From Polytrichum commune (taxonomy: Eukaryota > Streptophyta > Polytrichopsida > Polytrichales > Polytrichaceae): a DNA stretch of 64,000 nucleotides. The notes beneath the pieces were generated by a model, which was given only the letters and a program-made list of their open reading frames with translations, did not search any database and was not told the DNA's origin. Both the position numbers and the translations under genes were made by a program. The stretch is from positions 29,450,001-29,514,000 of the forward strand of contig OX485806.1 in NCBI GenBank assembly GCA_950295325.1, given 5' to 3'. Shown in pieces: positions 34,629-64,000 of the stretch; position 1 is the first letter of the stretch; each line of letters begins with the position of its first letter.

Positions 34629-35697
34629 ACTAAGGTTGACGGCACAAACAATGCCACTAGTAGTGATGATATATCGAAGGACGATTCCACTCAACAACTG
34701 CCAGTAAAGACAAGGAAGACAGAGCTCGACGTGGACGAGGTCTCGGAGATGACAGGTGAAAGTGACCGAGTGGGGACAGCGAAAGAAACTATAAATCTCG
34801 ACATCGAAGGCACTGCGCCAGTCGCGAAGAAGAAAGGAAAATCAGCAACCACTAAATCAGAAGCGGAAGAAGATTCAGACGTCTCCAGAGAACCCAAGTC
34901 AGAAGCAGGGCCTACTCCGAAAGCTCACCGATCTGCCGACGATGTAAAGACCGACACCGAAACAGTCAAGGATTCTATCACCAAGTCTAGGAGTATTGCT
35001 AAGGTGGCTCCTAAAGACTCGGACCCTGATGAAACTACTACCGAAACTTTGGATGATGAGCTCGTCACGACAAAGAAAGATGCAGAGTTGCAGATCACAA
35101 CTACTAAATTAGACGAGTCCACCACCAAACGAGATGAGGAGCTTGAAGCTGTGAATGGGCCAGCCTTGGAGAAGGCCGAAGATGAATCGGACAAATCAGA
35201 AACAACCGCCCTCGCCTTAAAAGATAGAGTGTTGATCAACACATCAGAGTCGGACATCGCCAACGAGACATCGAAATTTAATGAAGAACCTGCTCCTGCA
35301 ACTGGATCTTCAGTTAGCACTTCATTAAACTCAACCAAACCTACAGCAACTGCAGCACCCACCCTGTTGAACAGCACGAAGAAATTGGAGGTGTCTGAAA
35401 GCGGTGTACATGCCAGCAGCAAATCTGCGGACGAAGAGGACATCAGTTCGGTGATGGAGAGTGATCTGAACAAGGAGGACGGGCCCATCCAACATGAGGT
35501 AGAGGCAAATAGTGCTGGAGCACCCAAAACCTGTGATTACCCCATGGGAAAATGGGTGCCTAACTCCAGCCGGCCGATCTACTCTGATAACAAGTGCAAG
35601 CTATGGCTGATCGCTCCCATCTCGAGCTGCCTCAACCACCACCTCGAACTGCTGTTCGAGAAGTACCGGTGGCAGCAAGAGGGCTGCGTTCTGCAAA
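34629..35697 (+). pseudogene. TBL-type O-acetyltransferase N-terminal fragment
   Basis: TBL proteins O-acetylate cell-wall polysaccharides in the Golgi. The frame starts with about 300 residues of low-complexity acidic and Thr/Ser-rich sequence (ETTTETLDDELVTTKKD). It then enters a PMR5N domain: CDYPMGKWVPNSSRPIYSDN, KCKLWLIAP, then FEKYRWQQEGCVL, with the four Cys and the GKW and YRWQ.EGC motifs in place. It stops being TBL-like right after EGCVL, near 35697. The catalytic PC-esterase part (GDS and DxxH motifs) is missing. The same open frame continues into LINE-like DNA. I infer a fragment cut by, or captured with, the LINE. No introns are seen within it. Confidence 0.7.
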
Positions 35698-37088: not shown

Positions 37089-38718
37089 ATGTCTCAACGG
37101 GCCACAAACTCCAGCTCCTCTCAAAGATACAAAGAGAAACTCCTAGCCCTAGAAAATGATGCTGATGTTGAAATGTTTGTAACTCAAAAGCGCTCCTCCT
37201 CCTCTCAAGTCACCTCAAACCAAAAGAAGGCTAAGGGCAAATCAAACTCCGGTTTGAAACGCCCTCCCTTTTGGCTTGGGTACCAAGCTATGAATTGGAC
37301 TAATAGAGGAAAAGGACTCCCCATGGATAGCCATGTCCCGGTAGCTACTCTAGTAAAAAATGGGATGAGAGAGAAAGAAGCTAGAGAATGTCAATCCGTC
37401 ACATCCTCCTTCCCCTTTGTTACCCAAGAGGAATGGCCTAACTCTAGAGAGGACGGTAAAGTTGGACAACATTTCAACCTCACACAAATCCCATCAAATG
37501 TTGAGGTTGACAAGTTTGGCTTCTCATTCGATTACCAAATTGCAATTCTCTTTGAAATGGGAGAAATTGAATGGGAAAAAAGACACGGTCATGACGTTAG
37601 TAGAGTCAAGACTCAAAGAAATGAACATTGAGCTTGGGGATATCATAGGGGAACCTATTGCAATTATGTGTTACCACAAATCCACAAAGTGGAGTGGGGT
37701 AATCAAATTGCACTTGAAAACCCCCGAGATTGATGGGGTGGGACTCCTCCAAGGAACCCGCCCATTCATCCTCAAGCTTGATGATGAAAAGATCAAAAGA
37801 GGAAAAATATGCAAAACATATGACTCCCTAGCTTTGAACAACCTCTTATCAGTCAAAATTACAAGCGAGGAGCTAGAATCCAAAGAATGGTATGAGTTAT
37901 TTGAGAAAATCGTAGAAGAGAGTTTTTCAAGAGGAACGGAATACGAGATAACAAACATTCAAAAGAAAAAGGAAAACCTCTTTGCATGGGTAGTAGCCTC
38001 CTCCCCGGAACAAGCACAACGGATGAATGAGCATCAAATCACTTACAACCATGAGATACTAGACGGGAAGCTAGCGGACCGGACACACGCATCAAAGAAT
38101 GACATCGCAAGAAAGAATGCTCTCATTCTCATCGCCAAAAACCTCAACAAAGCTAAGAGCATAGAAGAGATAGAGAAAAGCATTGAAGCACACATGGGAC
38201 CAAAGAATACGGTCAACTTCTTCTTCAAACGTGATGACAAAAATGGCAAGCATCTTGGCTCATGCAACATCCAATGCCTTAATGCAATGGTATACAAAAC
38301 ATTTGCCAAGAAAACTGTGAAACTTCTTGGCAAACATGTAGAATTCACCCCCCACCCTAGGAGCCTTGATGGAGCAAACGCACCAAATGCAATTGAGCTC
38401 ACTAGACTAGGGTTTAGTGATGTGAACACTGCCCTTGCAAATACCATAGAAGCACTAGAAAACATCCCCGCAAAAGAGAACTCCCACAAAGACCTCATGA
38501 AAGAGATAGTTGGAATAAGAGAAGAAATTACCACCATGAAGGAAGAACTACGAAGTGAGCAACAACAAATTGCCGAGAAAGCCGCGGAAAAATCAACATC
38601 AACCCTCAACACACAAATGACACTCCTAAAAAGGCAACTTGCTACAACCATGCAAGCTCTAGACATGACAAGAGCTAGCTCCTCAGCCATTGAAGGCAAC
38701 ATGGACACGACAAACTAG
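37089..38718 (+). pseudogene. LINE copy 1 ORF1, RNA-binding protein
   Basis: ORF1 proteins of LINEs bind the element RNA. Starting at the ATG 37089 (MSQRATNSSSSQRYKEKLLA) the frame runs to about 37580. There, near a run of six A, it must shift to the frame that ends at 38718. Downstream it is continuous: GVIKLHLKTPEIDGVGLLQG, then NALILIAKNLNKAKSIEEIE to LLGKHVEFTPHPRS, which has the look of an RRM (beta-alpha-beta pattern). The C-terminus is a helical coiled coil (MKEEIVG-like, ITTMKEELRSEQQQIAEKAA). The whole is about 540 codons. The RRM call is by pattern only. The frame upstream of 37089 is also open back into the TBL fragment. Confidence 0.6.
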
Positions 38719-38889
38719 CTTGGTCAAACAATGCCACGGTAATAAACAAATCATTCCTACTAGTATCTATAGATATTATAAAATATACAAAAAAACCCAA
38801 AATAAGAACAAATATACAAACCCAAATAAAAAGTGTCAAAAGACACTACAAAATAAAACCACAACCCCTAAGCAAAAACAAAACCCAAC

Positions 38890-40260
38890 TAAAACGGGCT
38901 CGGCCTACCGGCCTCGCCCAAAAAAACAACAACAACAAAACAAACCACCCACTAATACTACCAAACAAACCCAATGACACGTCAAAAAAAAAAAAAATTT
39001 AAATGAAAATACAAAAACCCAAAAAATTAACAAAAATAATAACAAAAATTAAAACAATAAACAAACTAAACACATCAAAACCAACAAAACCCCCACCTTG
39101 GGCACCCCCCCCCCCCCAACAACATCAATACCATAATTGCCAATAGACTAATATACCTTCAAACTAAGCACACACTTCCCCACCCACACAAACACAAGAC
39201 ACTAATAAAGAACCCAACTAAACTACACAACATACTAACTTCACTACACAACACATCGGTAATAGAAAATTCATACCTACTAACAACTACAAACACCAAA
39301 GTCTAATATAAAAAACCCAAAAAAGTAAACACACCACAAACTAAAATAAAGAACGGTAAAATACACTACATAAATAATACCAAATACCCAAAGGTAAACA
39401 CCTACAAACTAAAACAAGCTTGGCCTACCGACTTCGCCCAAAAAAAAAACATACCACCCACTCATACCACTAAACAAACCCATCAACACATCAAATAGAA
39501 AAAAGAAGGAAAGAACAATTACACAAGAAACATACAAAATAAATAAACAACCCCAACACACCAAAACCAATAATACTTTCATAGTGGGCACCCCTCCTAA
39601 CAACAACAACAACAAAATCACCAACAAACCAATACACCTACAAACTAAGCACAAACCTCCCCAATCACACAAACACAAGATACTAACAAAGAATCCAACC
39701 AAAATACACAACAAACTAACTTTACCACACAACACAAGGGTAATAAAAAACTCTCACCTATTAATACCTACAAACACTAAAATCTACCCTAACAAACCCA
39801 AAATAGTAATAAAGCCACAAACAAAAATAAATAATGTCAAAATACACTACAAAAATAATACACAATACCTAAATAAAAATACTAACAAACTAAAACAAGC
39901 TCGGCCTCCCGGCCTCGCCAAAACAAATAAAAAGAAAAATGAAGAGAAAAGAAAAATAAGAAAAAACAACAAAATAAAAAGTTACAAAATAACCAAAACA
40001 CTAAGCAAACTTAACAACACACCAACACAAAGACATAAAAAAAACTACAACAACACAAACATATAAAAAACATCAAAAACAAACAAACAAACTACTCACA
40101 CAACAAACCTCAAAACCAATACGACTCTCACTCGGAACATCTCTCATAATAACAACAAAATCAAAACCACCAAGCAAATAAACAGAATAACACACCTACA
40201 GACTAAACATAGACACCACCACCCACACAAGCACAAAGTATTAATAAAAAACATAACCCA
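38890..40260 (+). repeat. Three about 500 bp direct repeats between ORF1 and ORF2
   Basis: The word TCGGCCTACCGGCCTCGCC (or close) occurs at about 38899, 39419 and 39901. In each copy it is followed about 240 bp later by a run of CAACAACAA and then ACAAACTAAGCAC..ACCCACACAAACACAAG. The third copy runs directly into ORF2 just before the 2A-like motif. The strand is nearly free of G and T, so few stops arise. The copies are diverged. Comparable tandem monomers occur in promoters of other LINEs; a promoter role here is a guess. Confidence 0.75.
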
Positions 40261-40261
40261 A

Positions 40262-40309
40262 CTAGACCTCCTCCTCTTAGGTGGAGACATCGAAACTAAC
40301 CTAGGTCCT
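40262..40309 (+). other. 2A-like peptide at ORF2 start
   Basis: The frame reads LDLLLLGGDIETNLGP and then M at 40310. The family consensus is a hydrophobic run followed by GDxExNPGP, at which ribosomes skip a peptide bond before the last Pro. Here the first Pro of NPGP is Leu. 2A-like sequences are known at the start of ORF2 in several metazoan non-LTR retrotransposons. With Leu at that site, activity may be weak or lost. No ATG lies upstream in this frame after the nearest stop. Confidence 0.75.
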
Positions 40310-41965
40310 ATGCCAGACATACTAAAGACACACCCACTTACCCACAAAAGACGCAGTAAAACCTACTTTATACCATGCACAATTAAACTCCACCCAGAAT
40401 ACCAACATCTAGCAACCCAATTCTCACCCATATTACGAAACACACACCCATACCACCAAGAAACAAACACCAAATACCCACACCTCTCCCTATACATATC
40501 CCAACAGCAAAACCACCCACCCCCACAAATACTATATGCACTCATCACCACAATCAACCCCTCATTAGAAACATGCAACAACAAGCTAGTACATACACCT
40601 ATGCCGGACTGGACAACAATACTCTTACAAAAAATGGCCACATTACAAAACCCACCCGAGAGACATATATCTACCCCGCACCCATACACACAATTCCTAA
40701 ACTCAAACCAAAACATAATTAACCCACCAAATACCATCCATAAGGAAATTTACAAATTTATCAACGAACACAACGAACCAATAACTCTCCAAACAATAAC
40801 CGACAAATTCCCATATCTACCAACTGAACTACTTGAAGAAGCAATAAAGTACAACGAACCACTATACGAATACTCCCACCCCCCCCCCCCACCACCGCCC
40901 GACATACCCACACGTCAAAATGAAGAAACACAAACAACTAGCCACACTACACACATTATTACCTGGAACACCTCATCCCTCAACACAACACTCCCAAGCC
41001 TCCAACACCTAATCCCTAACACGCCAGAAAACCCTGCAATAATTACAATACAAGAAACTAAAATAACCGCCACAAAATCCACCAAATATATACAAAACCA
41101 ATTCCCTAACTACAAATTAATATTTAACAACACACACACACTAACTAGATGCATGCAACAAAGATGGCCATACACCCCTACAAGAGGGGGACTCCTCACA
41201 CTCATAGATAAAAAATATGCATATCCAGGCAACATAACCAAAATCCCTACCCCAGCAGGAATATCACCATACTTACAGATAATAAGAATCAACAATGAAC
41301 CCCTACAACCATGGCTAATCATACATCTGTATATGCCCTCACATACAGAAGACACCCAATATATACCAATAATCCAACAAAATATAACCCAACAAATCAC
41401 AACACATCCAAATCACACATACATAATGTGCGGGGACTTCAACAGAGACATTGCCCTAATAGGCAGACATAATGAATTAAACACCACCCCACCCCAAGCA
41501 GAAGATATAGAATGGCGTACATATACAGACAACCTCCAACTAACTTACATTCCAACAAACAGTCCATACACTAGACAGGGCGGCCCAAACTACAACCAAA
41601 CTAGTCTAATCGATGGATACTACATCAAATCATCAAATAATTCTTTATATACTTCAACTACCAACCATGACCATAACCTAAACTCAGACCACTCACCTGT
41701 CACATTACATATACCACCAAATACACTACTAGCAAGGCCCACACCAACAACAATAATAGACCCACTAAGGATCCTGAACCCCATCCCGGAAGAAAACATT
41801 GAAAAATTCAATACAGAATTCTTTGAAGAAAATGCACTCCAAATAAATGATCTCACCTCAACACTAATGAACGAACAACTAACTAACACCCAATGGCAAA
41901 TAGTCGTGCAACCAATTAGACCATCTAATACAAAAAATATCAGACAAAATACAAGATACTTGTAG
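40310..41965 (+). pseudogene. LINE copy 1 ORF2: AP-type endonuclease part
   Basis: An N-terminal extension of about 200 residues with a Pro run (40879-40901) precedes an apurinic-type endonuclease that nicks target DNA. Motifs in order: HIITWNTSSLN, ITIQETKI, RGGLLTLI, YMPSHTEDTQY, CGDFNRDIAL, SLIDGYYI and NSDHSPVTLHI. All the expected catalytic positions (N, E, D/N, D, SDH) appear present. The frame is lost near 41915 and continues in another frame through 42350, where the copy also has a TGA near 42200 in place of the Trp seen in copy 2. A 25-base A run lies at about 42329-42353. Confidence 0.85.
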
Positions 41966-42391
41966 GGCACCACCTCTCCCAACACTAACCAATCGTACAG
42001 CTCTACAAGGAGGTTTTCTACCAAGAAAACTTCAAAAAAAATGGAAAAAACACCTATCTACTTACCACCTAATTAGGAAAGCAATATACATCACAAATAA
42101 CTCTCAAAATTGGCAATCACACCCAATCATAGAAGAATTAAATACACATACTCATGTCAACATCCCGACACCCCTGGACCAAGATCAAAATCACCAAGAA
42201 TGAATTAAAACATTAGCAGACTTAGCCAAAACTGCAAACATACAAGCCCGGAAAATCACTACAAAATACACCCAAGACTGTATCAAAAAAGCCATATCAA
42301 AATACAGACAACTATATGAAAAAAGCCAAAAAAAAAAAAAAAAAAAAAAAAAATCTTCAAAAACCATGAAGCACCACCATTAGACTGTATA

Positions 42392-43722
42392 ATGGATAGA
42401 AATAATAATATATTAACCAACCCTGAGGACATACCCAACGAACTGTACACACAACAATCAATTAGCAATAGACCCACGGTCCCAACATGTTACTTCCAAC
42501 CCAAACACTCACCACAATGCACATGTGGAGTTAGACAATACCCATGGCACGACCTAGATGGATTTGTTATAGACAAAAAGGGCAATCCACAAACTCCACT
42601 ACACGAATACCTAGACCACGAAACATATGACTTGTGTCTAAAACATTTAGTCAATAACAAAACCCCAGGCCTAGACAAAATCCCAAATATAATTCTAAAA
42701 AACATGCCCGAAAGCTTCCACAAACTACTATTTAAGTTCTTCACCCACTGCTACAAACAAAAACAAATACCATCCTCATGGAGAACGAGCTTAACCATAC
42801 TACTATACAAAAAGGCAACCCATCACAATTATCAAACCATAGACCCATAGCACTAGCAAACACAATATACAAACTATTTACTAGTACCCTAACACTAATA
42901 CTAGCAACATACGGAGAAAAACACCAAATACTCCACGATAGCCAAGAAGGATTTAGAGCAAAAAAAAACACGTCTAGACAATTACAACTACTAATAGCAA
43001 CCTTAGAAGATGTCAGATTCACAAATCAAAACATATATTTACTATACATAGATTTTAAAAATGCATTCGGCTCCCTAGATCATGCAAGACTACTTGCCGT
43101 AATGAAAGACCTCGGATATCCAACAAACGTAGCAACATTAGTTGGGAATATATACTCTCAATCAACTACTATATTTTCAGGCGAATACTTTGGAAAAACA
43201 AAACCAATACCAATACAAAGAGGCACCCTACAAGGAGACACACTAAGTCCATATTTATTTCTCATATTTTTAGAACCACTGTTACGATGGTTGCAAAGAA
43301 GTAAAAATGGATATACATTTGGTACATCCAAATTAACCATAAGCTCCGCAGCATATGCAGACGACCTCGCAACTATCTCAAATAACCTCCAATCACTACA
43401 AACCCAACTAGAAAAATTAGATAAATATTGCAAATGGGCAGGTATGGATTTAGGAGTACCAAAATGCGCCATTACAGGATGCCCCAACAAATCCAAAACT
43501 AAACCTGAAACCTTTAAAACTCATATCCAAAACCAAAACATATCCTACAGGAATCAACCAATACCGGTCCTACACCAAAATGAACCCTACGTATACTTAG
43601 GTATTCAACTAGTACCTTCACTAAAATGGAAACTTCAAACACACATCACTACAAAGAAAGTAATAGACCAATGCAAACAACTAGCAAATTGCCCAGCCAC
43701 AATCAAACAAAAAATAAAATGA
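42392..43722 (+). pseudogene. LINE copy 1 ORF2: reverse transcriptase
   Basis: Non-LTR RT motifs in order: LVNNKTPGLDKIPNIILKN, a frame change near 42830, then LSNHRPIALANTIYKLF, QEGFRAKKNTSRQL, YIDFKNAFGSLDHARLL (motif A), QRGTLQGDTLSPYLF (motif B), AAYADDLATIS (motif C) and YLGIQLVPSLKW. The next frame (43626-44843) continues with a domain shared by copy 2: VIRAGIAYNFYAVPYSLPTI, then RIKQQDCIRSPTTRILFL. RT copies the element RNA at the nicked target. Confidence 0.93.
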
Positions 43723-45879
43723 TCGACACAGTCATAAGAGCAGGTATAGCATACAACTTCTATGCGGTACCCTACTCCCTACCAACCATCAAAAAACTCG
43801 ACAAAAAAATCACAGGCATCCAAAAAACCATATGTGGATTACCAAAATGCACAGCAAATGTAATATCTCAACTACCACATGAATTATTTGGACTAGAAGC
43901 ATTCTCACTAAAAAATGCATATTTACGATGCATTAGCGAACAACTCCGAAACGCCCTTAACGATCCCGGCAGACTAGGCATAATATACAAAGGACTCATA
44001 CAACATATCTTAGCCAAACACGGAGGGGCAGAAGAAATCCCGAGAATAAAACAGCAGGATTGTATTAGATCACCAACTACACGAATATTATTCCTATTAA
44101 AGAAAGCTGGAGGAATTCACCTGAAAAGCACGAACGAAAAATTCCAACTCCATATGACAGAATTAGAAAGGGAATGGCGGGCGCAAACTCTAACAGAATT
44201 ACCACACCTCAACCCCGAACTATCACTCAAACTATTACACAAACTATTAATACAAAACATATACACAATTAAACATATCACCCTCCCTAACGGAACACAT
44301 CTTATGACACCAGATAACTTTAAAATATATTACAAAACCCCAACCAGACTAGAAAAAAGTGCACTACATATAGCAGAACAACTGTTCTACCACACGAACT
44401 GCACACCAAACTGCCATAATCAATGTACAATACACCCACCACCCCAAACACTCAAAATAAAATACATCTCAGACAACCAAAGCCTAATACCGAGAACACC
44501 AATCAACCCATCCCAACTCCTAACCACACAACACCCACACCACTCAAACCCACCTACTAACATCACGAAACAGCCGCACAAATTCCCTATAAATATAATA
44601 TTAGAACACAAAATAAAAATTTCAAAAGACAAATACAAAATAACTAAAAACTATAACACATACTTATGTCAATGGACACTCCAAAACAACGAAACATACA
44701 ACAAATGGATGCCACAACAAGATCTCTTTCCTTTTAACCATCCAACAGTTATTGCACACAACATTACACTGTTAACAACATATTACACAAAAACACAACA
44801 CGAACATTACAAAAACATCATCAACACACATTTTTCCCCATAACAAAATAGAGACTTAAGATTCATCCCCCCACCTACAAATATCCCACTAACACAAATA
44901 TTCATAAAAGAATGTAACCCAGAAAAGAACATCATTACCAATAAAGATACCATATAAGTAAATAATGAACAAACTCACATATATGAAGACACTGGAAAAC
45001 ACCTCATCACTATACCAACTACTAGAATTAAATGGCTGTGGCAACAATACAACAAAGCAAGCTATAGCACACATGGATTAGTACCACAAACACAAACATT
45101 CGAGAAAGAAGTAGTCTGGCTATACCAAAGATACAAGAATAAAATCCCCAAAAGCGACCCAATAAAAACAGTACAACATACTCTACCAACTAGCATAACC
45201 AACTCTATCATCAGCACCTTTAATATTTCCCACTCCTATTTTTCCTCACCAGTAACATGCTCAACACAAATCAAAAAAATTTACTCCCCCTTCGTAAGGG
45301 ATAAGGTTTTTGGATCATTAGGAACCACCTTCCAATACAAATGGGAAGGTATAGGCTATGCTCACCCACATAATGAGGAAACAACTCAACAAGCAATCCA
45401 CTGGGCAAGGCTGGCAGCCAAAAATGACCCAAACACCATCACTATAATAGTAACTCCAAACATAAATTGGTACCAAGATCTCTCAACATGCACCGGACCA
45501 TTCCCAGACACTCACGTCATCACCCACTTTGCGGCAAATACAATAACATACGAAGAACCAACAATCCCCCAAGAACTACATAAACCAAAAACAGAACCGC
45601 TTGCAATACAAATCTTATGTATTTACCACCAAAGCCACCCTATTGGCACATCCCATCAACTAAATACAATAAAAGTTGTACTTGAAAACCTACAAATCCC
45701 ACAATACCACAAACAAAATGCCCCACCCACCCCACCCACCCCGTCTAATACGCAAGTCAACAAAAGTAAAAAATGGAATAAACTCAGATACCCACCTACA
45801 GCCTACCAAACCACAACAAACACACCACCACTCCCAAACTTCACAACAAATACCACACTCAAAATCCAACCACAGTACA

Positions 45880-46315
45880 GCTACTATACCGACGGATCCT
45901 TCATACCTCCCATACGAACTGATAGCGGACATTGGAAAAAAGAAAAAGCCGGATATGGTATATACAACTCAACTAAAGCAGATATGCAAATCTCGAAAAG
46001 ACTACCGGGGTTACAAACGAGCTTCCGAGCAGAACTAATGGCCATCCACAAAACTCTCAAACTAATATCTACCAAATACCCAAACGAACCAGCACACATA
46101 TTTACAGATTGCCTAAATTGCCTATATAATCTAAACACACACATTAAACACCCAACTATACATAACAACCATGCGGACAAAACAATACTAACAAGTATGG
46201 TAGAAATATTAAAAACACAAACCAACCTACCATATTCTATAAAGTCAAAGCACATACCAACATTAAAGGAAATGAACAAGCAGACAAACTAGCCAAAATA
46301 GGAGCCAAAAAAAGA
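45880..46315 (+). pseudogene. LINE copy 1 ORF2: RNase H
   Basis: Motifs: YYTDGSFI (first Asp), KAGYGIYN, FRAELMAIHKTLKLI (Glu), AHIFTDCLNCLYNL (second Asp) and, in a shifted frame near 46245-46300, KVKAHTNIKGNEQADKLAK with the final His and Asp. RNase H removes the RNA strand after reverse transcription. All four catalytic acidic residues are visible. At least two frame changes fall inside. Confidence 0.88.
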
Positions 46316-46417
46316 TACTCCACCGCCTCCAAATCATACGAATTCGCACACACCACACCATTCTACTTCCAAAAAGACATATGGCCAGGTCCTATAAAAC
46401 GACCAGATAAAGGTCCT

Positions 46418-47338
46418 GTGAGATGCCTACAAACATATCTAACCAAACATGACCAAAAGAATAACATTGAAATCATGACAACTCAATTCCCTAACATCAG
46501 CAAATGGACTATGAACCCAGACATTGATAACGAACTATCCAATGTTTTTTGGTACAACCCTATGATTACAGATGCACAGAAAACTAATATACTAAAATTC
46601 CGCACTGGCCAATACATGGGCAATGCAAGGAAACAATTATTTTTTGGAAGAGAAAGATTCCCCTCAATAACATGCCCTATTTGTAACTCTGCAGATGCGG
46701 ACACATGGCTCCACGTATTGCTGAAATGCAACCACCATCATATTCACGCCATAAGAGTCAAAAGACATAACAAAGCAGTATGGAAGTTACGAAAACTAAT
46801 CCTATCATCACAGAAATCAAGATGCTATACCCTCATGAACGCAGGAACATTTAATAATAAACCACATGAAAACACAGTACCCCCATGGTTATTAGCATGC
46901 TCATGTGAACAACATAGGTGCCACTGTAACGCTAGATTAAAACCAGATATTCTCTGCGTAAAAGGTCACCCGTACAATAATGACCCACCATCTAACCCAT
47001 CAGACAGCCTCACAATACAATTCATTGAATTTACATACTGTAACGACAGATTCCCACAAGAAACAATCACAAACAAAATCCATAAATACCAACCTCTACT
47101 AAATAACATCATCGACTTAGGATGGAAAGTCGACCCACTCATAGTCATAACAGCAGGAGCTAGAGGCACTACACACACCCCATCAATGAAACTCCTTGAA
47201 ACAAACCTCAAGATACCAGAAGCTACCATTAAACATACATTTAAAGAAATCAACACCATCGCTATACAACATGCCGGATCAATTATTTTACATAAAAGAA
47301 AAATAGAAAATAACCAACCCTTACCCATCGATCAGTGA
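46418..47338 (+). pseudogene. LINE copy 1 ORF2: CCHC knuckle and restriction-like endonuclease-like C-terminus
   Basis: One open frame of 306 codons to the stop. A CCHC knuckle (TCPICN, DTWLHVLLKC) is followed by IRVKRHNKAVWKLRKLI, as in R2-type elements where CCHC precedes an RHD/RHN helix. Then come LKPDILCVKG, LTIQFIEFTYC, ITNKIHKYQPL and WKVDPLIVITAGARG. The order KPD, acidic residue in a beta strand, K..KY, and a hydrophobic strand ending GARG is the layout of restriction-like endonucleases of early-branching LINEs. Copy 2 keeps the same residues. The domain call is from pattern; catalysis is not shown. Confidence 0.7.
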
Positions 47339-47377
47339 ATAAACTAAAACTAACAAGGAGGAAAGGGAAAAGGAAAC

Positions 47378-47700
47378 ATAATAATAATAATAATAATAAT
47401 ATATGAATTCTATTTATTTTCATAATAATAATAATAACTATTATTATCATTATCATTACCAGCAAAATAATAATTTTATTTATAATACAGGTCTAGCTCA
47501 AAGTGAACACTTGTCTCAGGAAGAAGGGATAGGGCCGGCTGGTTTTCAAACAAACTTTCCTACCTATGATAAAATCACTAGCAACACCAAGTCATGTATA
47601 CCAATATAACGCTCAAACAAGCTCGATGGGAATCGAACCCGGACCGTATAAATGGTAGCACAAACGTTCCAACCAACCTTGGAACCATGACTTGGCGCCC
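47378..47700 (-). mobile_element. tRNA-derived SINE-like insert in the LINE 3' UTR
   Basis: Read on the minus strand from 47700, a tRNA-like head holds an A-box-like TGGTTCCAAGGTTGG and, about 55 nt on, a strong B box (GGTTCGATTCC). A body of about 130 nt follows, and the tail is a run of TTATTATT/ATAATG. The insert separates the ORF2 stop from the LINE's conserved 3' part. The TTA-rich tail resembles the tail of LINE copy 2, which hints that this LINE family mobilises it. No target duplication could be set with confidence. Confidence 0.5.
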
Positions 47701-47739
47701 TCAAACAAAAACCAACACCAATATATACCCTTAAGAATA

Positions 47740-47912
47740 ATCAACACCATTAAGGTTACTAGTACTTACCTTAGTTACTAAAGTGTCTATTCCCGAAAGG
47801 GGAGAGTAGTCTTGATACAATGGCCCTTTGTCCTGTGGGCTTTGGCTCATTGTCGAGACGAACAGACACTCTATTCACGCCGGCCCTTTGAAAGAAGGGT
47901 AGGTGTTCATAT
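47740..47912 (+). other. Structured 3' end of LINE copy 1
   Basis: AGTGTCT (47781-47787) can pair with AGACACT (47874-47880), enclosing a CCC-GAAA-GGG hairpin (47792-47801). A terminal hairpin follows (GCCCTT..AAGGGT, 47883-47901). Copy 2 has the same plan with different bases in the terminal stem. Such 3' structures are typically what the LINE RT recognises. Confidence 0.65.
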
Positions 47913-56034: not shown

Positions 56035-56035
56035 A

Positions 56036-56036
56036 G

Positions 56037-56093
<57 letters not shown>
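56036..56093. repeat. (TTA)n tail of LINE copy 2
   Basis: About 19 AAT units abut the 3' terminal hairpin of the minus-strand LINE. A simple-repeat tail of this kind is usual at the 3' end of LINEs lacking poly(A). Confidence 0.8.
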
Positions 56094-56094
<1 letters not shown>

Positions 56095-56095
<1 letters not shown>

Positions 56096-56294
56096 TTCGG
56101 TCTCCGAAGGAGACCGACGTGAATTAAGTGTCTGTTCGATCTACCTTCAATCCCAAGCCCACAGGACAGAGGTATGAAGGAGAAGATCTACTCCCCCCTT
56201 TCGAGAGTAGACACTTTAGACACAAGAAACCAGTAATGTAAACTACGCCTAATATAATACCCCTTGCCCCTTACCCTAACTTTTAAGTTCTGAG
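56095..56294 (-). other. 3' UTR of LINE copy 2
   Basis: On the minus strand AAGTGTCT pairs with AGACACTT (plus-strand 56206-56214 and 56126-56133) around a CTACTC..GAGTAG hairpin with a GAAA-containing loop. The end is a perfect hairpin GGTCTCC-TTC-GGAGACC (56099-56115) before the TTA tail. Layout equals that of copy 1. Confidence 0.7.
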
Positions 56295-57030
56295 TTATAG
56301 GGGGTCTGGATTTTGGGGGAGTGGTTGGTGGTTTTCAATTCTCCTTTTATGGAGGAGAATAGACATAGCATATTGTATTGCAATGGTGTTAATATTTTTG
56401 AAAGTATTTTTGATGGTGGCCATAGGTATTTTGAAGTTGGTCTCTAGTGCTTTCATAGATGGGATGTGGGCAGTCGCTCTGGCACCAGCAGTGATGACAA
56501 TAAGTGGTTCGATTTTCCATCCTTTGGAAGCAATGCTAGCAATTAGTGGGCTGTATTTGTTATTTTTTGCTTCAATTGCTTCTGGGGAGAATATGTCCTT
56601 GCAGTATGTGAATTCAATGAATTGTATGGTAAGGTTAGGGTCGACATCGCTGGGAGGGGCATTTTGATATGGTAGTCCTTTAACACAAAGGATATCAGGT
56701 CTAAATCTTGCGTTGCAGTGACATCTTTGTGTACTACATGTGCAGGGGAGTAGCTAATTGGGGACTGTGTTTTCTTGGGGGTTGTTATTGAAGGTGCCAG
56801 CATTCATGAGAGTAAAGCATCGGGATTTTTCTGATGAGATTAGGAGCTTCCTAATTTCTGCGATTGCTTTGTTATGTCTTTTAACTCTAAGTGAGTGTAT
56901 ATGTTGGTGTTTACATGTAAGTAATACATGTATCCATGTATTTGGTTCATTTGAGTTGCATATGGGGCACGTGATAGTGGGAAATCTTTGGTGGCCAAAA
57001 AACATTTATTTTCTTGCATTACCCATGTAG
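56295..57030 (-). pseudogene. LINE copy 2 ORF2: CCHC and restriction-like endonuclease-like end
   Basis: CCHC: TCPICNSNEPNTWIHVLLTC, then LRVKRHNKAIAEIRKLL. Nuclease-like part: RFRPDILCVKG, LTIQFIEFTYCKDIF, KNNKYSPLIASI, WKIEPLIVITAGARAT. The residues kept in both copies (PD, E of EFTYC, K..KY, GAR) are those expected to matter in a restriction-like fold. Ends at TAA, plus-strand 56295-56297. At least one stop and one frame change occur. Confidence 0.72.
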
Positions 57031-57055
57031 GTTCCTGTGCGGAATTTGATGAGGC

Positions 57056-57370
57056 CATGGAGGCTAGTGTGGTTTGGTCTGGGTGACTATTATGAAGTGT
57101 GGGGTGTTTAATTTGAGTGTTAAGTAGGTATAATACATTTAGACTGTCTGTGAATATAAATGCGGGTTCGTTGGGATATTGTGTGTTGATAATGCTTAAT
57201 GTTTCGTGTATAGCAATCATTTCTGCTCGTAATATGTTTTGATGTCCATGTAATCTATTGGCGATGTTTAGCCCTTTGGGGCTGTAGATACCGTATCCAA
57301 CTTTTTCTCTTCTCCATTCCCCAGGGGCTATTTCTTTGGGTTTCATAAAGGAACCATCGGTGTAGTAGCT
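57056..57370 (-). pseudogene. LINE copy 2 ORF2: RNase H, 3' part missing
   Basis: Motifs YYTDGSFMKP, KVGYGIYSPKG, ILRAEMIAIHETLSII and AFIFTDSLNVLYLL are present. The last motif (KVKAH..NEQAD in copy 1) is gone, lost with the deletion that joins TTLASM directly to the segment before the CCHC. Upstream in the same frame (to about 57772) is the linker. Confidence 0.82.
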
Positions 57371-58836
57371 GAATTGGGGGTGGAATTTTAGTGGTAGGTT
57401 TGTTTGGTAGTTTGGGAGTTGTGGGGTGGGGATGTTATTGTTTGGGGGTATATTTGGGTAGTTTGATTTAGACCATTTTTTACTAGAGTTCACTGTGATG
57501 TTTGAAGGGGTGGGTGGTGCAATTTGGGTGTGGCTTTGTAATATTTGGAGATTGTCTGCTATGTCCTTTAGTAATTTCATTTGTTCATAGGTGCCTATGT
57601 TATTGTTTTGGTGGTGGATACAAAATATTTGTAGGGTAGACGGTTCTTTTCTTGTAATATTGAATTCGGGAGGTATTGTGGGTTCTTCATATGCAATCGT
57701 ATCGGTTGCAAAGTGGCAATGATGTGTGTGTCCAGGAATGGACCTATGTGCGGGTTTGGGTTTTTGTACCAATCGGTATCCGGAGATATAAGTATAGTGA
57801 TTGTATATGGATCATTTTGGGCCGCCATGCGAGCCTAGTGAATGGCTTGTTGTAAGTCTGTTGCGTTGTGGGGGTGAGCATATCCTATTCCTTGCCATTT
57901 GTGGTCAAATGCTTTCCCTAAGGATCCAAATATTATGTCACGCGAGAATGGCGAGTAGAATTGGGTGAGTTGCGTGGGGCATGTCACTGGAGATGAGAAG
58001 TATGATTGGTTGATATTGAATGTGGTTATTAGGAGATCTTATATTGGGGTTGGTATTGTATATTGGGCACGTTTGAGTGGGTCATTTTTCGGAATTCGGT
58101 ATTTGTATCTTTGATATAACCAAACAATTTCGGTTTCGAAAGATTGGGTGGGCGGTTCTAGACCATGTGTGGTATTTTTTGCCAATTGATATTGTTTCCA
58201 TAACCACATTAGTCTAGTTTTCGGGGTGGTGATAAGGTGCCTACCATTATCTTCGTATATGTGAACGACGTCAAATTGTATTTGGATAGTATCGGAGTTG
58301 GTTTCAATGTCATTTTTTGGGTTACATTCATTAATAGAGATATGTGCTAGTGGAATTATTGTGGTAGGTATGACATATCTCGTGTCTCTTTGTTGTTCTG
58401 TGGAGAAGTAAGCAGTAATAATGTTTGAGAAGTGTTTGTGTTGTCTTTCCATGTAGTAGTGGGTAAGTAGGACGGTGTTGTGGTTGCATGTGTTAGTATC
58501 GCAATAGGGGTATAGATCCCTTGGAGTTTGTCATTTGTTGTATGTGTGGTTATTTGTTGTAGTCCATTGACATAGGTATGACGTGACTGTTCTTTTTATT
58601 CCGTTATGGTCGGTAGATTGTTTTTGTTTGTGATCAAGTATTTTGTATATGGGATATTGTCGGGGATCCTTAAGTATGTTGTTGGAGGGAGGGGGTAGAG
58701 GGAGGATGGGAGGGTTTGTGGGGTGTATGGGGGGAGTCGGTAGGTGAGGTAGAATGTTGTGGTGTCTTAGTATATATTTGTCTTTAAGGGATCTGGGTGG
58801 ATGGTGTCGTTGGCATGGTAGGGGGCATTCGTGATT

Positions 58837-60900
58837 TCAGAGAGGTTGGCAAAATAGTTGATTAGCGATGTTTAGTGCACTTTGGATGAATTTGGAAGTG
58901 GTGGAGTGGTAGATTTTGAATTCATCTAGGTTCATTAGTGTGGTGCCATTAGGCATGGTAATTTGGTCTAGTGTTGTTATATTATGTATGAGCAATTTGT
59001 ATAATAGTTTAAGTGAGGTGTTGGGATTTAGACCCTGTAGCATTTGTGCTTCTTGCATCCACGCGTTTTCGAGTGGGGATGGGTGTAGAAGGAAGTTGTT
59101 TATTGTACTTTTAAGGTGGACTCCGGCTTCATGCTTGAGCAGAAATAATGTTCTAGTGATAGGTGATCTAACACAGTGGTGGTATTTAATACGGGTAATT
59201 TCTTTAGAACCTCCGTATTTGACAAATATAAATTTTGCCAATTCGGCCTTTATCGTTAAGGGCGTTTTGTAGTTGCTCTCCAATACACCGTAGGTAGGCA
59301 TTTTGTAGTGAAAATGCTTCAATTTTAAATAGGTTGTGGGGGAGTTGTGGAGGACTTGTGTAACAATATTAGATGTGCATTTGGGTATTCCGCATATTAT
59401 TTTATGGAGTGCGATGATCTTTTTGTCAAGTTTTTTTATGGCTGGTATGGGGTATGGTACTGCATAAAAACTATATGCTATTCCAGCGCGTATGACTGTA
59501 TCAACCATGTTGATTTTTTGTTTCATAGTAGCTGGGCATGCTACGAGGGCTTGACATTGTTTGATTACTTTAGCTGTAGTGGTATTTATTTGTGTTTTCC
59601 ACTTGAGTGATAGTGCAACATTTATTCCTAGGTGTGTATAGGGTTCGTGTTGGTTTAGGACTGGTATAGGTTGGTTTCTATAGTTTATGTTGGTGGATTG
59701 GATTAGGGCCTTGAAGGTTGTGGGGTTAAGTTTAGATTTGTTTGGGCATCCAGTTACTACTATTTTGATATTCCTAGGTTCATTCATGCCCATTCGCAGA
59801 ATTTGTCTAGTTTATTTAATTGTGTTTGTAGTGTATCTAGTTTGTTGGCGATTGCTGCAAGGTCGTCTGCATATGTTGCTGATGAGATTTTAACTCTGGA
59901 CGTACCGAAAGTATATCCATTGTTTCCTTGTTGTAGCCATCTAAGTAGGGGTTCTAGAAATATGATGAATAAGTATGGGCTAAGGGTATTGCCTTGTATT
60001 GTACCTCTTTGGATGTGGATTGGTATGGTTTTTCCGAAGTGTTCGCTAGTAAATATGGTTGAAGATTGTGAGTATATGTTTTCTATGAGGTTTATTGAGT
60101 CATTGGGGTAACCCAGGTCTTTCATTATGGCTAAGAGTCTAGGGTGGTCAATGGAGCCAAAGGCGTTTTTGAAGTCAATGTAAAAAATATATATATGTTA
60201 GTTTGTGAGTCTTGGATCTTCAAGCGCTGCAATTAGTATTTGGATTTGTCTGGAGGTGTTTATTTCTGCTTTGAACCCTTCTTGGCTATCGTGTAATATA
60301 TGGTATCTTTCTCCGTATGTTGATAGGATAGATGTTAGTGTACTTGTGTAAAGTTTATATATGGTGTTAGTTAGTGCAATAGATCTGTGATTTGTTAGCT
60401 GGGATGGGTTACATTTTTTATATAATAAAATTGTTAGGCTAGTTTTCCATGATGCGGGAATTTGTTTTTGTTTATAGCAGTGCTTAAAGAATAGGAAAAG
60501 TAATTTGTGAAAGCGCGGAGGTATATTTTTTAGGATTGAATTGGGAATTTTGTCTGGACCTAGGGCTTTGTTATTACTTAGGTTTTTAAGACAGAAGTCG
60601 TAGGTTTCTTGATCAAAGTATATGTGTAAGGGGATTTGGGGTTCTCCTCGTTTGTCAATTGTGTATCCTTCTAAGTCGTACTATGGGTATTGTCTGACTC
60701 CACATGTACAGTGTAGTGGATATGTATTTTGATGGTGGCATGTGGGGACTGTTGGGCGGTCACTGATGGATTGTTGTGCGTAACTTTCTGATGCAATGTC
60801 TTCAGGGTTGGTTAATATGTTGTTTTGTCTATCAATGATGGAGTCAATAGGTAAGGTTTCAGTGTTTTTGAAGACTTTTCTGTTTATTTTCTTGGGATTT
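58837..60900 (-). pseudogene. LINE copy 2 ORF2: reverse transcriptase and post-RT domain
   Basis: RT motifs: QRGTIQGNTLSPYLFIIFLE (B), SATYADDLAAIAN (C), IDFKNAFGSIDHPR near 60140-60185 (A), with QEGFKAEINTSRQIQI near 60240-60285. The post-RT part reads YTHLGINVALSLKW, VIRAGIAYSFYAVPYPIPAI, RIKYHHCVRSPITRTLFL. The sequence upstream, 60884-61427, is a 180-codon open frame (LIRKAIYIAQHDPRWQVHP) matching the region before the RT in copy 1. Confidence 0.88.
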
Positions 60901-61434
60901 TTTCATACATTTGGCGGTATTTCGATACGGCTTTTAAAATGCAGTCTCTAGTATATTTTGTGGTGATTTTTCTAGCTTCTTTATTTGCAGTTTTTGCGAT
61001 GGTCGCTATTGTATTAATCCATTTATCAGGGGATGCTGCTGTAGCAGGTGGGTGCGAGATGTTGACGTGTTGGTGGTTTCGGATATCGTTTAGGATGGGG
61101 TGCACTTGCCAGCGTGGGTCATGTTGTGCTATGTAAATGGCTTTCCTGATGAGGTGATATGTGTTGAGGTGTCTTTTCCATTCTCTAGCTAGTTTGCGTA
61201 GTAGAAAACCACCTTGTTGCAATGTTCTGGTTGTAAGGTTGGGTAGTGGGTCTGCTTTGTAGGTTTTTTCAATTGTTTCTGAGATTTTGTTTATAATGTA
61301 GTCTTGTGATGTACAGGCATCTTGCCATTGATCAGATGTTAAGTGTTGGTGGTTTTCTAGTAGTGTGGTAAATACTTTAAGTTGAGTGGAGTTTTCTTCA
61401 AAGAATGTTATGTTCAATTGTAAACGCAATTTTT

Positions 61435-63229
61435 GGGCTATCGCCTAGCTAGAGAGCTACCATTTTCAAATGAGTGACAATTAGCGGCAATAGTCGTTTA
61501 AAGGCAAATCACCAGTGTGAAACGAGGGCGATAGTCGCTCCTAGACGGTTGCAACCGCCTTCACCTCCCCCGCCGATAAGGAGGAGGCTGACCATCGCCA
61601 AGACAGGCTATTTACCATTGTAGAATTTGACGTGGTCTCAAGATAGGAATAGGCTGATAGAAAGTTCATGCTCTCAGTGATTGAGGCTGAACGGTTGGCA
61701 ATAGACAACGCCAAGCAAGAGGTTGGCAGCACTAGGAACAGATGTGAGAGCTGAGTGATTCGGACTCGCAGAGAACTTGGAACTTTGACATTGAGCAGTA
61801 AACTGATTGAGAGCAATTGTCGTAATAATTATGGAGTGACATTTTGATTGTAATTTCGGTGTTTGAATATGAGTATTGTCTTGTGTGATTTTTGGCAATA
61901 GTTGTGAGCGTTGGAATAGACATATCATCCGCCAAGAGGGCGAGGAAGAAAGAAGCAATGTCTGTGTAATAGCAATGGCCGAAGTCGGACTATGGCCATT
62001 GTCTTGTGAGTGAGTCATGTCAATGAAGCAAAGGCTGATTGCCGAGAAAGAAAGGCAATAGCCTAGTGGAAGAAGGAAGAGTCGGAGTCTGAATATGGCC
62101 ATAGACAAGAGAGAGACTTCTCTCAGCCTGGTGCACAGGTTAAAGACTATTTGCCTGAGAGAAGGACAAAGAAGCGTTGGCAATTAGGCAGTGAGTGGTA
62201 GAGTCTTGGAAGTCTGTAACTTCCGTGAGACTAGGCCTGGGCGATAGGCTATGTTAAGGGAAGTCATGAGAGAAGTCCGTGAGGGTAAATAGTCGAGGTT
62301 AAGGCCATTGCCTGCTCGGACAGAGAGCCGAAGCATCGAGGAAGAGCTATCGCCTGAGTCCCTTGGCTATCGCCCGTTTGTTACAGAGAGACTATGAGTG
62401 AGAGTTGAGAGAGGAATGTCCTGTAGGGCCATAGGTTTAGCAGGTGTCGTCCCTGAGAGAGAAGAAAGAAAGAGAACAGAGAGGCCGCTCGTGGGAGCAT
62501 AGCCAAAGGCCTACTCTAAGACATTACCTGGCGTGTAGCCGTTGCAGTGACTGCAGAGACGAGACGAGTTATTCGCAAGCGTGAGCTGCAAAAGATATTA
62601 CCATCTCATGAAAAAGAGATTGACTACTTAGTGTAAGACATTACCAAAGGCTAATACTTTCAAGCTTAAAATGTAATTAGGCCTTAATTAAGGAATATCG
62701 CCTACATTGTTGATGCATTGATCATATATAATGCTGTGGGGATTTGTGTGGACAAGTTGCCAAATCAGTTGAAGATGAAGATGATGATTACAGTCTTGTG
62801 AAGATTGCCTGGATGACTGTAAGTCAAATTAAGATGAATTAATTTGAAATTATTGCAAAGCTCAATTCTTGTTATGCAAAGACGATGTGGTTACAAAAAG
62901 ACATTACCCCGGACTTCGGTCCTGACGAATTGCCAAGGACTACTTGCCAAGCTTTTGAGCTTCACGACTGAAATAGGTCAAAGAAATAGAGTGATAGAAA
63001 CTTTCCCTAAAGATAGGACAGAATAACTTTTGACGGAGGAAGCACAAGGAACCATAAGAGTGGGGAATAAGTGGAATTAAGAAGGAATGAAGGAAGAAAG
63101 ATCCTATGTTGTTATTATAGTCCTTAAATCCAATGTGACATTAACCCTTATAGACACTATCTCAGTCTTCCTGGAGACTTTGTTCCCTGGGTTTTGTTGT
63201 TTTGAGCCATAGCAAAAACTTACTACATA
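61435..63229 (+). mobile_element. 1.8 kb LTR-like repeat inserted in LINE copy 2
   Basis: The LINE reading ENLEK stops at the right edge and RLQLNITFFEEN resumes at the left edge, so the insert is bounded tightly. AATTTTT stands on both sides (61428-61434 and 63230-63236) as a 7 bp direct repeat. The right 750 bp match 10126-10858. It has a TATA-like CCCTTATA about 80 bp from the right end and ends near CTACA. No coding capacity, no obvious inverted ends; probably a solo LTR or other non-coding element, younger than the LINE. Confidence 0.7.
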
Positions 63230-63242
63230 AATTTTTCTAGGT

Positions 63243-64000
63243 TTTCAAGTGGTATCGGGTTCAGTATTCTAGTTGGTGAGGTGTTTATAGGGGATGGGGG
63301 TCTGGCTATAAGTGTGTTGTGTGGGATGTGTAATGTGACTGGATATTGATCTGAATTTAGATTTATGTTTGTATTTGTAGTGGAGGTAAATTTGATATTG
63401 TCTGGGGAGTGAATGTAGAAACCATCTATTAGGCTTGTTGATGTGTAGTTGTAGCCACCTTGTCTGGAGATACTAGTGTTGGTTTGAATATATTCTAAGT
63501 TGAGAGATGTGGTGAAGTTTTTCCATTGGAAGTCTTCTTCTTGTGGGGGGGTGTTAGTGTTGTTATTTTGTCTGCCCTGAGTGCAATATCTCTGTTAAAG
63601 TCACCACATAGTGTGTATATGTGATTGGGGTGTATAGTGATTTCGTTAGTGATTTCGTTTTTAAGGTTTGGGATAAGACATGTGTCTTCTAAGTGCGTGG
63701 GCATATACATGTGTATGATTAGCCAAGGTATTAGTGGGTGGTTATTTATTTTTATTATTTATAAATATGGGGAGATGTTTGCTGGTGTGGGAATTTTGGT
63801 GACATTCCCCAAGAATGCATATTTATGATGGATAAGTGTGAGTAGGCCATCTCTTCCAGGAGTGTAAAGCATTATTTTTTGTATGCACGTTGTGAGTGCT
63901 TGTGTGTTGTTAAAAATGAGTTTGAATTCCGGAAATATATTTTGTATATATTTTGTAGATTTGTTTGCAGTTAGTTTGGTTTCTTGGATATGTATGATTG
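63243..64000 (-). pseudogene. LINE copy 2 ORF2: AP-type endonuclease, partial
   Basis: Minus-strand motifs: HIQETKLTANKSTKYIQN, LLTLIHHKYAFLGNVTKIPT, WLIIHMYMPTHLEDT, LCGDFNRDIAL, TSLIDGFYIHS, ending RILNPIPLENLEK at the insert. It matches copy 1 position by position with moderate divergence. The first endonuclease motif is beyond the window. At least one stop (in the SPYL region) and one frame change are present. Confidence 0.85.

Follow-up and report, generated by a model that had tools for sequence, protein, structure and literature searches.

A 64,000-nucleotide stretch of the Polytrichum commune genome (assembly GCA_950295325.1, contig OX485806.1, positions 29,450,001 to 29,514,000 of the forward strand; hereafter the window, numbered from its first letter) contains two copies of a long interspersed nuclear element (LINE). 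This two-copy element is, we consider with good confidence, a Dualen/RandI-type non-long-terminal-repeat retrotransposon in a plant genome, carrying an apurinic/apyrimidinic (AP) endonuclease, a reverse transcriptase (RT), a PCIF1/CAPAM-like domain, an RNase H, and a zinc finger with a restriction-like endonuclease. Copy A lies on the + strand at about 40067-47902, and copy B on the − strand at 63998-56037, from the window edge to its tail. Domain order is the same in both: AP endonuclease, RT, PCIF1-like domain, RNase H, CCHC-RHN, and a block with KPD, E-x-T, K..KY, and GARG motifs.

Domains, decay, and selection in the two copies

Copies A and B are both pseudogenes, old and diverged, with DNA identities of 67.7, 71.0, and 69.2% in three long blastn blocks and a protein identity of 61% over 1921 aligned codons. 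The second open reading frame (ORF2) of copy A could be traced over 40067-47335, where it is split into six frame pieces and carries internal stops; it is thus not the single ORF2 described in the original prediction, an earlier reading of this DNA. Copy B has in-frame stops and an interruption of about 1.8 kb of foreign DNA at about 61420-63229, in which no long terminal repeats were found. It has no counterpart of copy A 46191-46594, so the C-terminal end of its RNase H is missing. The domains are as follows.

40958..41701, + strand, AP-endonuclease-like domain of copy A (Pfam PF14529 8.6e-7 and PF03372 1.8e-5, both over cut-off)
63226..63998, − strand, AP-endonuclease-like domain of copy B, reaching the window edge; SDQ replaces SDH
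42808..43608, + strand, RT of copy A (Pfam RVT_1, PF00078, 2.5e-29, over cut-off)
59787..60902, − strand, RT of copy B, with in-frame stops (RVT_1 6e-17, over cut-off, for 59787-60197)
44976..45581, + strand, PCIF1/CAPAM-like domain of copy A, between RT and RNase H (Pfam PF12237, PCIF1_WW, 7.8e-10, over cut-off)
57598..58347, − strand, PCIF1/CAPAM-like domain of copy B, with in-frame stops
45876..46306, + strand, RNase H of copy A, across a frameshift (Pfam PF00075 8.3e-7, over cut-off)
57080..57715, − strand, RNase H of copy B, C-terminal end missing (Pfam PF00075 2.1e-5, just under cut-off)
46673..46777, + strand, CCHC plus RHN zinc-finger module of copy A, aligned with R2 9nl2 930-977, sub-threshold alone; also covered by a four-way alignment
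46937..47335, + strand, putative restriction-like endonuclease block of copy A (KPD, E-x-T, K..KY, GARG), aligned with R2Tg 9dou 1301-1369, sub-threshold alone
56298..57005, − strand, CCHC-RHN plus putative restriction-like block of copy B, with one in-frame stop

All motifs named in the original prediction were present at their places in copy A, and its claim that both copies in the window keep the order held, the SDQ of copy B and its truncated RNase H being the exceptions. The list of domains that it gave was right for the AP endonuclease, RT, RNase H, CCHC-RHN, and KPD block but had overlooked the PCIF1-like domain. Similarly, its limits of 40310-47338 enclose the core, but the element extends upstream to a 2A-like peptide and downstream to a structured 3′ untranslated region (UTR) that ends near 47902 in copy A.

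The AP-endonuclease motifs of copy A are ITIQETKI (41042-41065), CGDFNRD (41429-41449), and SDHSP (41684-41698). The corresponding domain of copy B was recognized through its identity to copy A (65% over 228 codons), the best Pfam E value for an AP-endonuclease family in its two pieces being only 0.039. RT motifs QGDTLSP and YADDLA are found in copy A at 43216-43251 and 43354-43371, respectively. The end of the copy A RNase H, in the other frame, matched PF00075 with an E value of 0.0013, and the residues D, E, D, H, and D are all present (45882-46297). This RNase H is thus without the arginine-for-histidine change given for the archaeal-like RNase H of plant L1 elements in PMC4640811.

The C-terminal region of copy A carries CPICNS (46673-46690), KRHN (46760-46777), KPDI (46937-46957), FIEFTYC (47021-47041), K..KY (47081-47098), and GARG (47150-47167). 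When this region was searched against the PDB attached to the RT (with alignments available for the top five among ten matches), the CCHC-RHN stretch was colinear in R2 chains 9nl2, 9nl3, and 9dou (conditional E 0.0087, 0.12, and 0.17), and a K..KY..GARG..H stretch was found in 9nl3 and 9dou (conditional E 0.012 and 0.016). Such colinear extra stretches, each insignificant alone, occurred in all three R2 chains and in neither of two L1 chains. With a two-sequence R2 profile, copy A outscored copy B and all of 20,000 shuffles, thus ranking first of 20,002, at 18.1 bits versus 14.9 for the best shuffle. A four-way alignment of A, B, and two R2s had 27 identical columns, whereas 200 column-shuffled controls averaged 15.8 and never exceeded 25. 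A motif expression for the block, matched by 0 of 200,000 shuffles, was not accepted as a test, as it was written post hoc and its full form misses one of the two R2s. The profile rank, the alignment controls, and a pN/pS (nonsynonymous over synonymous differences) of 0.192/0.759 over 247 codons between A and B led us to accept the block as homologous to the R2-type restriction-like endonuclease, by controls rather than by a database match, and to treat it as a putative nuclease. The relation to the R2 nuclease module proposed in the original prediction is supported to that extent by the colinear stretches, the profile, and the alignment.

That value corresponds to a ratio of 0.25 for the block. 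The other domains gave 0.238/0.671 (0.35) for the AP endonuclease, 0.162/0.687 (0.24) for the RT, 0.217/0.768 (0.28) for the PCIF1-like domain, and 0.254/0.758 over 98 codons (0.34) for RNase H, and segments between domains gave 0.314/0.660 (0.48) after the RT, 0.336/0.691 (0.49) for a segment termed mid, and 0.283/0.593 (0.48) for the PCIF1-RNase H linker, all of these ratios being rough because synonymous change has reached saturation or nearly so (dS not finite in three domains). This saturation weighs against our reading of the element, as does the linker between AP endonuclease and RT (0.263/0.677, ratio 0.39), which lies hardly above the AP endonuclease; further points on that side are gathered with the class assignment. 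Even so, pN lies far below pS in every domain, and the two nuclease regions as well as the PCIF1-like domain were under long-lasting constraint.

The PCIF1/CAPAM-like domain and the folded 3′ end

PCIF1/CAPAM is the mRNA-cap m6Am methyltransferase (cap-adenosine N6-methyltransferase). In copy B, Pfam PF12237 matched a 67-residue piece of the corresponding region under cut-off (6.4e-6) and, with X placed at the stops, the region over cut-off (7.3e-10). The motif YAHPHN is found at 45357-45374 in copy A and at 57865-57882 in copy B. PDB searches with the PCIF1 region of A alone, or with A plus B pieces, did not find PCIF1. A profile of A, B, and L002, a relative described below, had CAPAM/PCIF1 as the top two of 15 matches to E 10 (9.3e-4 and 2e-3; third 0.13), together with a separate weak match to a PP-x-x-SF segment of CAPAM/PCIF1. 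Comparison of the same three sequences with the human and zebrafish PCIF1 chains by hhalign gave a P value of 9e-7 and a probability of 91% over 48 columns. When A and B were aligned with two PCIF1 rows, 26 columns were identical; 200 controls averaged 14.2 and reached 22 at most. These comparisons show that the predicted domain is homologous to the methyltransferase domain of PCIF1/CAPAM.

The likeness to PCIF1/CAPAM (6irv, 6irx) lies in the start of the methyltransferase core (LP..., SP..C, FGS.G) and in a G-x-x/P-PP-x-x-SF segment. In contrast to PCIF1, the element's domain sits in a retrotransposon polyprotein, and its PP..SF segment directly adjoins the core, whereas in PCIF1 some 225-255 residues separate the two. 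In the multiple alignment, the NPPF of PCIF1 stands opposite HPHN in both copies and opposite HPIY in L002, with no NPPF in the element rows. The domain thus seems to be without the NPPF catalytic motif and most likely no longer methylates. NPPF mutants of PCIF1 are described as inactive, and a catalytically dead PCIF1 in Drosophila is cited, in PMC10544176; the latter offers a precedent for a non-catalytic role.

L002 was found by RT pattern only, in a scan of prokaryotic genome contigs with a DNA pattern for QGDTLSP(F/Y)LF. The scan returned two stretches, of which L002 was real and the other, L001, was judged to be chance. L002 lies on a 5,085-base contig in a public Clostridiales metagenome-assembled genome (MAG), and it encodes in one open frame an RT, a cysteine-rich PHD-like stretch, and a PCIF1-like region. 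This LINE-type open reading frame suggests that the contig is probably a eukaryotic contaminant of a bacterial MAG. The L002 RT is 35% identical to that of copy A over 496 residues (9.7e-79), and its PCIF1-like region is 26% identical over 136 residues (1.4e-6), with PF12237 matches of 4.1e-7 to 9.4e-6, under cut-off. The PHD-like cysteine cluster, noted by eye, had no Pfam match, and the MAG had no match to the restriction-like block or to the 3′ UTR model described below. Protein and alignment scans of viral contigs gave no confirmed relative, and two RT patterns had no match there; phages likewise had no RT match. Among plasmids, 9 of 72,556 records had an RT match, and these were prokaryotic RTs by annotation where annotated.

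Downstream of the coding region, three features were found.

47776..47902, + strand, structured 3′ UTR end of copy A (folding z −3.03; 1 of 200 shuffles as good)
56095..56222, − strand, structured 3′ UTR end of copy B (folding z −4.30; 0 of 200 shuffles as good)
56037..56094, − strand, (TTA)n tail of copy B, 19 repeats (Tandem Repeats Finder)

A structure common to the two 3′ ends spans 128 columns with 34 pairs, of which 12 are changed on both sides yet still paired and none is broken; it was derived from the same two sequences, which favours it. None of 500 shuffles reached this covariation, and sliding the sequences by 1 to 3 columns left 0 to 2 such pairs. Since double changes of this kind are hard to get otherwise, the comparison shows that A and B share a covarying 3′ RNA end, predicted to be folded. 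The 3′ UTR model found only its own two sites when run on the window, L001, and L002. A 14-base 3′ UTR pattern matched at least 120 stretches on viral contigs, which were put down to chance; 80 were taken as loci, and the 3′ UTR model had no match there.

RandI tails are (ATT)n or (CTATTT)n in eight tabulated green-algal families, and SINE (short interspersed nuclear element) partners are given for RandI, in PMC3747384. An ATT-type 3′ repeat is present in copy B and not after the structured 3′ end of copy A. In the 3′ UTR of copy A, a reverse insert at 47378-47770 is tRNA-like and SINE-looking, and by eye its TTA-rich end is like the tail of copy B. Possibly, it is a SINE that LINEs of this type mobilized. 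A blastn search of the window found no second copy of it.

Class assignment and a possible retrotransposition mechanism

Dualen is defined by an AP endonuclease plus a restriction-like endonuclease (PMC4640811, PMC3636483), and RNase H is listed for Dualen/RandI (PMC4640811). The element has the N-terminal AP endonuclease, the C-terminal restriction-like endonuclease (by controls), and the RNase H expected of Dualen/RandI, in two copies, and copy B has the ATT-type tail. The presence of an AP endonuclease sets it apart from the R2 clade, which has a restriction-like endonuclease without one, and the R2-type block sets it apart from L1, RTE, and I elements, which have an AP endonuclease only. 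The suggestion in the original prediction of a Dualen-like lineage in a land plant, or a new clade, therefore stands as to this set of domains.

A listing of 2015 confined Dualen to green algae (PMC4438587); it has been found in all Chlamydomonas relatives compared (PMC8226300) and is expanded in all cryptophytes examined except Guillardia theta (PMC12747079). No report of Dualen in land plants was found among the papers listed by the literature searches, in which subscription papers were mostly not included and repeat tables may list such elements. Likewise, no report of a PCIF1 domain in a LINE was found among the papers listed, as judged mostly from titles, abstract starts, and term counts. 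The element differs from Dualen/RandI in its plant genome, its 2A-like peptide, its PCIF1-like domain, which the text consulted on Dualen does not mention, and the lack of a detected cysteine protease.

Among solved structures, R2 9nl2 was the best match of the RT (4.7e-30), followed by 9nl3 (3.1e-28) and 9dou (5.9e-28), compared with 5.5e-21 for the best human L1. R2 elements, represented by 9nl2, 9nl3, 9dou, and 8gh6, also share CCHC-RHN followed by KPD, acidic-x-T, K..(K)Y, and GARG; they are rDNA-specific and have neither the AP endonuclease nor the RNase H found in the element. Eight RTs were placed in a tree, namely those of A, B, and L002, two from R2, that of human L1, and two from group II introns. 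A, B, and L002 formed one clade (98/98) and R2 another (100/100), while the order of the element, R2, and L1 was not settled. The original prediction had offered grouping inside the L1, RTE, or I clade, combined with no profile match of the C-terminal block to restriction-like nucleases, as grounds for giving it up; the RT fell outside human L1, the sole L1 in this tree. We thus describe the element as Dualen-type by architecture, and not as a proven member by RT phylogeny.

The further points on the opposing side concern several domains. Bombyx R2 (8gh6 2.4e-18, 8ibw 4.2e-17) matches the RT less well than does L1. Kojima and Fujiwara reportedly described Dualen, in 2005, as having a cysteine protease domain; a Pfam scan of copy A found no peptidase or cysteine protease, and several stretches were left with no assigned domain. 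The structured 3′ end of copy A has no (TTA)n run after it. For the PCIF1-like domain, identical columns in all five rows including L002 numbered 11, which was reached in 10 of 200 controls and is not significant; AlphaFold modelled the PCIF1 plus RNase H region poorly (mean pLDDT, a per-residue confidence score, 34.6); and the strong PCIF1 match lies upstream of NPPF, so the pairing of NPPF with HPHN, which rests on the multiple alignment, is likely and not certain. For the C-terminal block, R2 was missed by PDB searches that used this region alone, the R2 profile gave copy B just 4.7 bits (a score exceeded by at least seven shuffles), and the AlphaFold model was again poor (mean pLDDT 36.9). 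The profile-profile (HMM-HMM) comparison with R2 proposed in the original prediction was favourable in its P value (0.0043, hhalign) but not in its probability, which was only 8%.

The failure to find R2 by the C-terminal region alone, the lack of support from the model for a nuclease fold, and the weak score of copy B with the R2 profile are what would be expected of an AP-endonuclease-type LINE, either plant L1 or of the I group with RNase H, in which the C-terminus is a zinc knuckle only and no second nuclease exists. We consider this quite improbable, since CCHC, RHN, KPD, E-x-T, K..KY, and GARG follow one another in R2 order in both copies, the pN/pS of the block is low over its 247 codons, and the best R2 match of the RT beats L1. 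Plant L1 elements with an archaeal-type RNase H resemble the element in joining an AP endonuclease, RT, and RNase H in a plant LINE, but the element keeps the RNase H histidine (KVKAH), has the R2-type block and the PCIF1-like domain, and, in copy B, ends in a tail that is not poly(A); the kept histidine and the R2-type block led us to reject such an L1 as the explanation. Chance nesting, in which an R2-like LINE or a PCIF1 fragment was inserted beside an AP-endonuclease-type LINE, would fit with the broken state of copy A and the other mobile elements in the window. It is hardly credible given that the same order recurs in copies only 61% identical over 1921 codons and that L002 has RT and then a PCIF1-like region in one open frame.

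A more serious competitor, though still an unlikely one, is a separate, unnamed deep clade of dual-endonuclease LINEs with a PCIF1-like domain, whose likeness to Dualen would be architectural only. In its favour, A, B, and L002 form their own RT clade with an open position relative to R2 and L1, the PCIF1-like domain and the PHD-like cluster of L002 are not known among the domains of Dualen, and Pfam detected no cysteine protease. The set of AP endonuclease, RT, RNase H, and restriction-like endonuclease and the ATT-type tail are, however, as given for Dualen/RandI in the sources above, and Dualen sequences may carry a PCIF1-like domain that has gone unnoticed. Membership in the Dualen/RandI type thus stays our preferred reading.

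Under this Dualen/RandI reading, the element would move by target-primed reverse transcription, its protein specifically recognizing the folded 3′ UTR of the RNA that encodes it. The target would be nicked, and reverse transcription primed, by one of the nucleases (probably the restriction-like nuclease together with the zinc finger), and slippage could leave (TTA)n. The other nuclease would then cut the second strand, and RNase H would remove the RNA; which nuclease makes which cut is a guess. The PCIF1-like domain may bind the capped 5′ end of the element RNA, favouring full-length templates. This role as a cap reader, also a guess, is the least certain and the most interesting step. Dualen has been cited in support of the view that restriction-like LINEs gave rise to AP-endonuclease LINEs through nuclease replacement (PMC4640811). 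The low pN relative to pS in both nuclease regions of our element suggests that both were needed in the long term, which argues against one of them being a relic.

As a tentative history, which we judge possible and rather less than probable, an old dual-endonuclease LINE lineage present in distant eukaryotes would have acquired a PCIF1/CAPAM-like domain whose methyltransferase motif was lost, and selection would have preserved this domain for recognizing the capped 5′ end of the element's own RNA, with the conserved folded 3′ UTR marking the other end, such that both ends of the template are checked. Finding a PCIF1-like domain in a LINE would tie retrotransposition to the biology of the mRNA cap and suggests, in testable form, how full-length RNA could be selected by a LINE. 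Its SINE partners could be sought by means of the covarying 3′ end.

Upstream parts and surroundings

Three features precede ORF2 of copy A.

37417..38715, + strand, possible ORF1 (433 aa), an open frame tied to the element only by strand and position
38705..40267, + strand, a tandem array of three units of roughly 500 bp, preceding ORF2 (self-blast)
40262..40309, + strand, 2A-like peptide LDLLLLGGDIETNLGP, just before the ORF2 ATG; the copy B counterpart lies beyond the window

The possible ORF1 had no Pfam match below E 0.08, and its base skew is unlike that of ORF2, so it may belong to another element. The tandem units are direct repeats spaced 520 and 481 nt and very rich in C and A; they are possibly 5′-UTR monomers, reminiscent of promoter monomers. 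The peptide at 40262-40309 reads GDIETNLGP, with leucine for the first proline of NPGP, a pattern that we take to identify a 2A-like ribosome-skipping peptide. The coding strands at 38000-47300 (+) and 56000-64000 (−) are poor in G and rich in A and C, with coding-strand GC skew values as low as about −0.6, in contrast to most of the window.

Neither an Rfam (gathering) scan nor a tRNA scan had a match in the window, and the Rfam result indicates that there is no ribosomal RNA in the window; an NCBIfam scan added nothing new. Upstream of copy A, at about 35529-35687, lies an exon encoding PMR5N (PF14416 1.2e-8), presumably a plant-restricted domain, and copy A may lie within an intron of the gene concerned or may have disrupted it. 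A 12-base match between 47922 and 33363 was not accepted as a target-site duplication of copy A, because it would place the PMR5N exon inside the element. The PMR5N exon, together with the thioredoxin and CACTA-type domains given next, points to a plant host, most likely a land plant whose genome is large, a streptophyte alga being improbable. The window also contains a thioredoxin open reading frame with a plastid-like leader (the leader by eye). At 4876-9181, Transposase_21, DUF4218, and DUF4216 domains, which we take to be typical of CACTA elements, mark remnants of a CACTA-type transposon.

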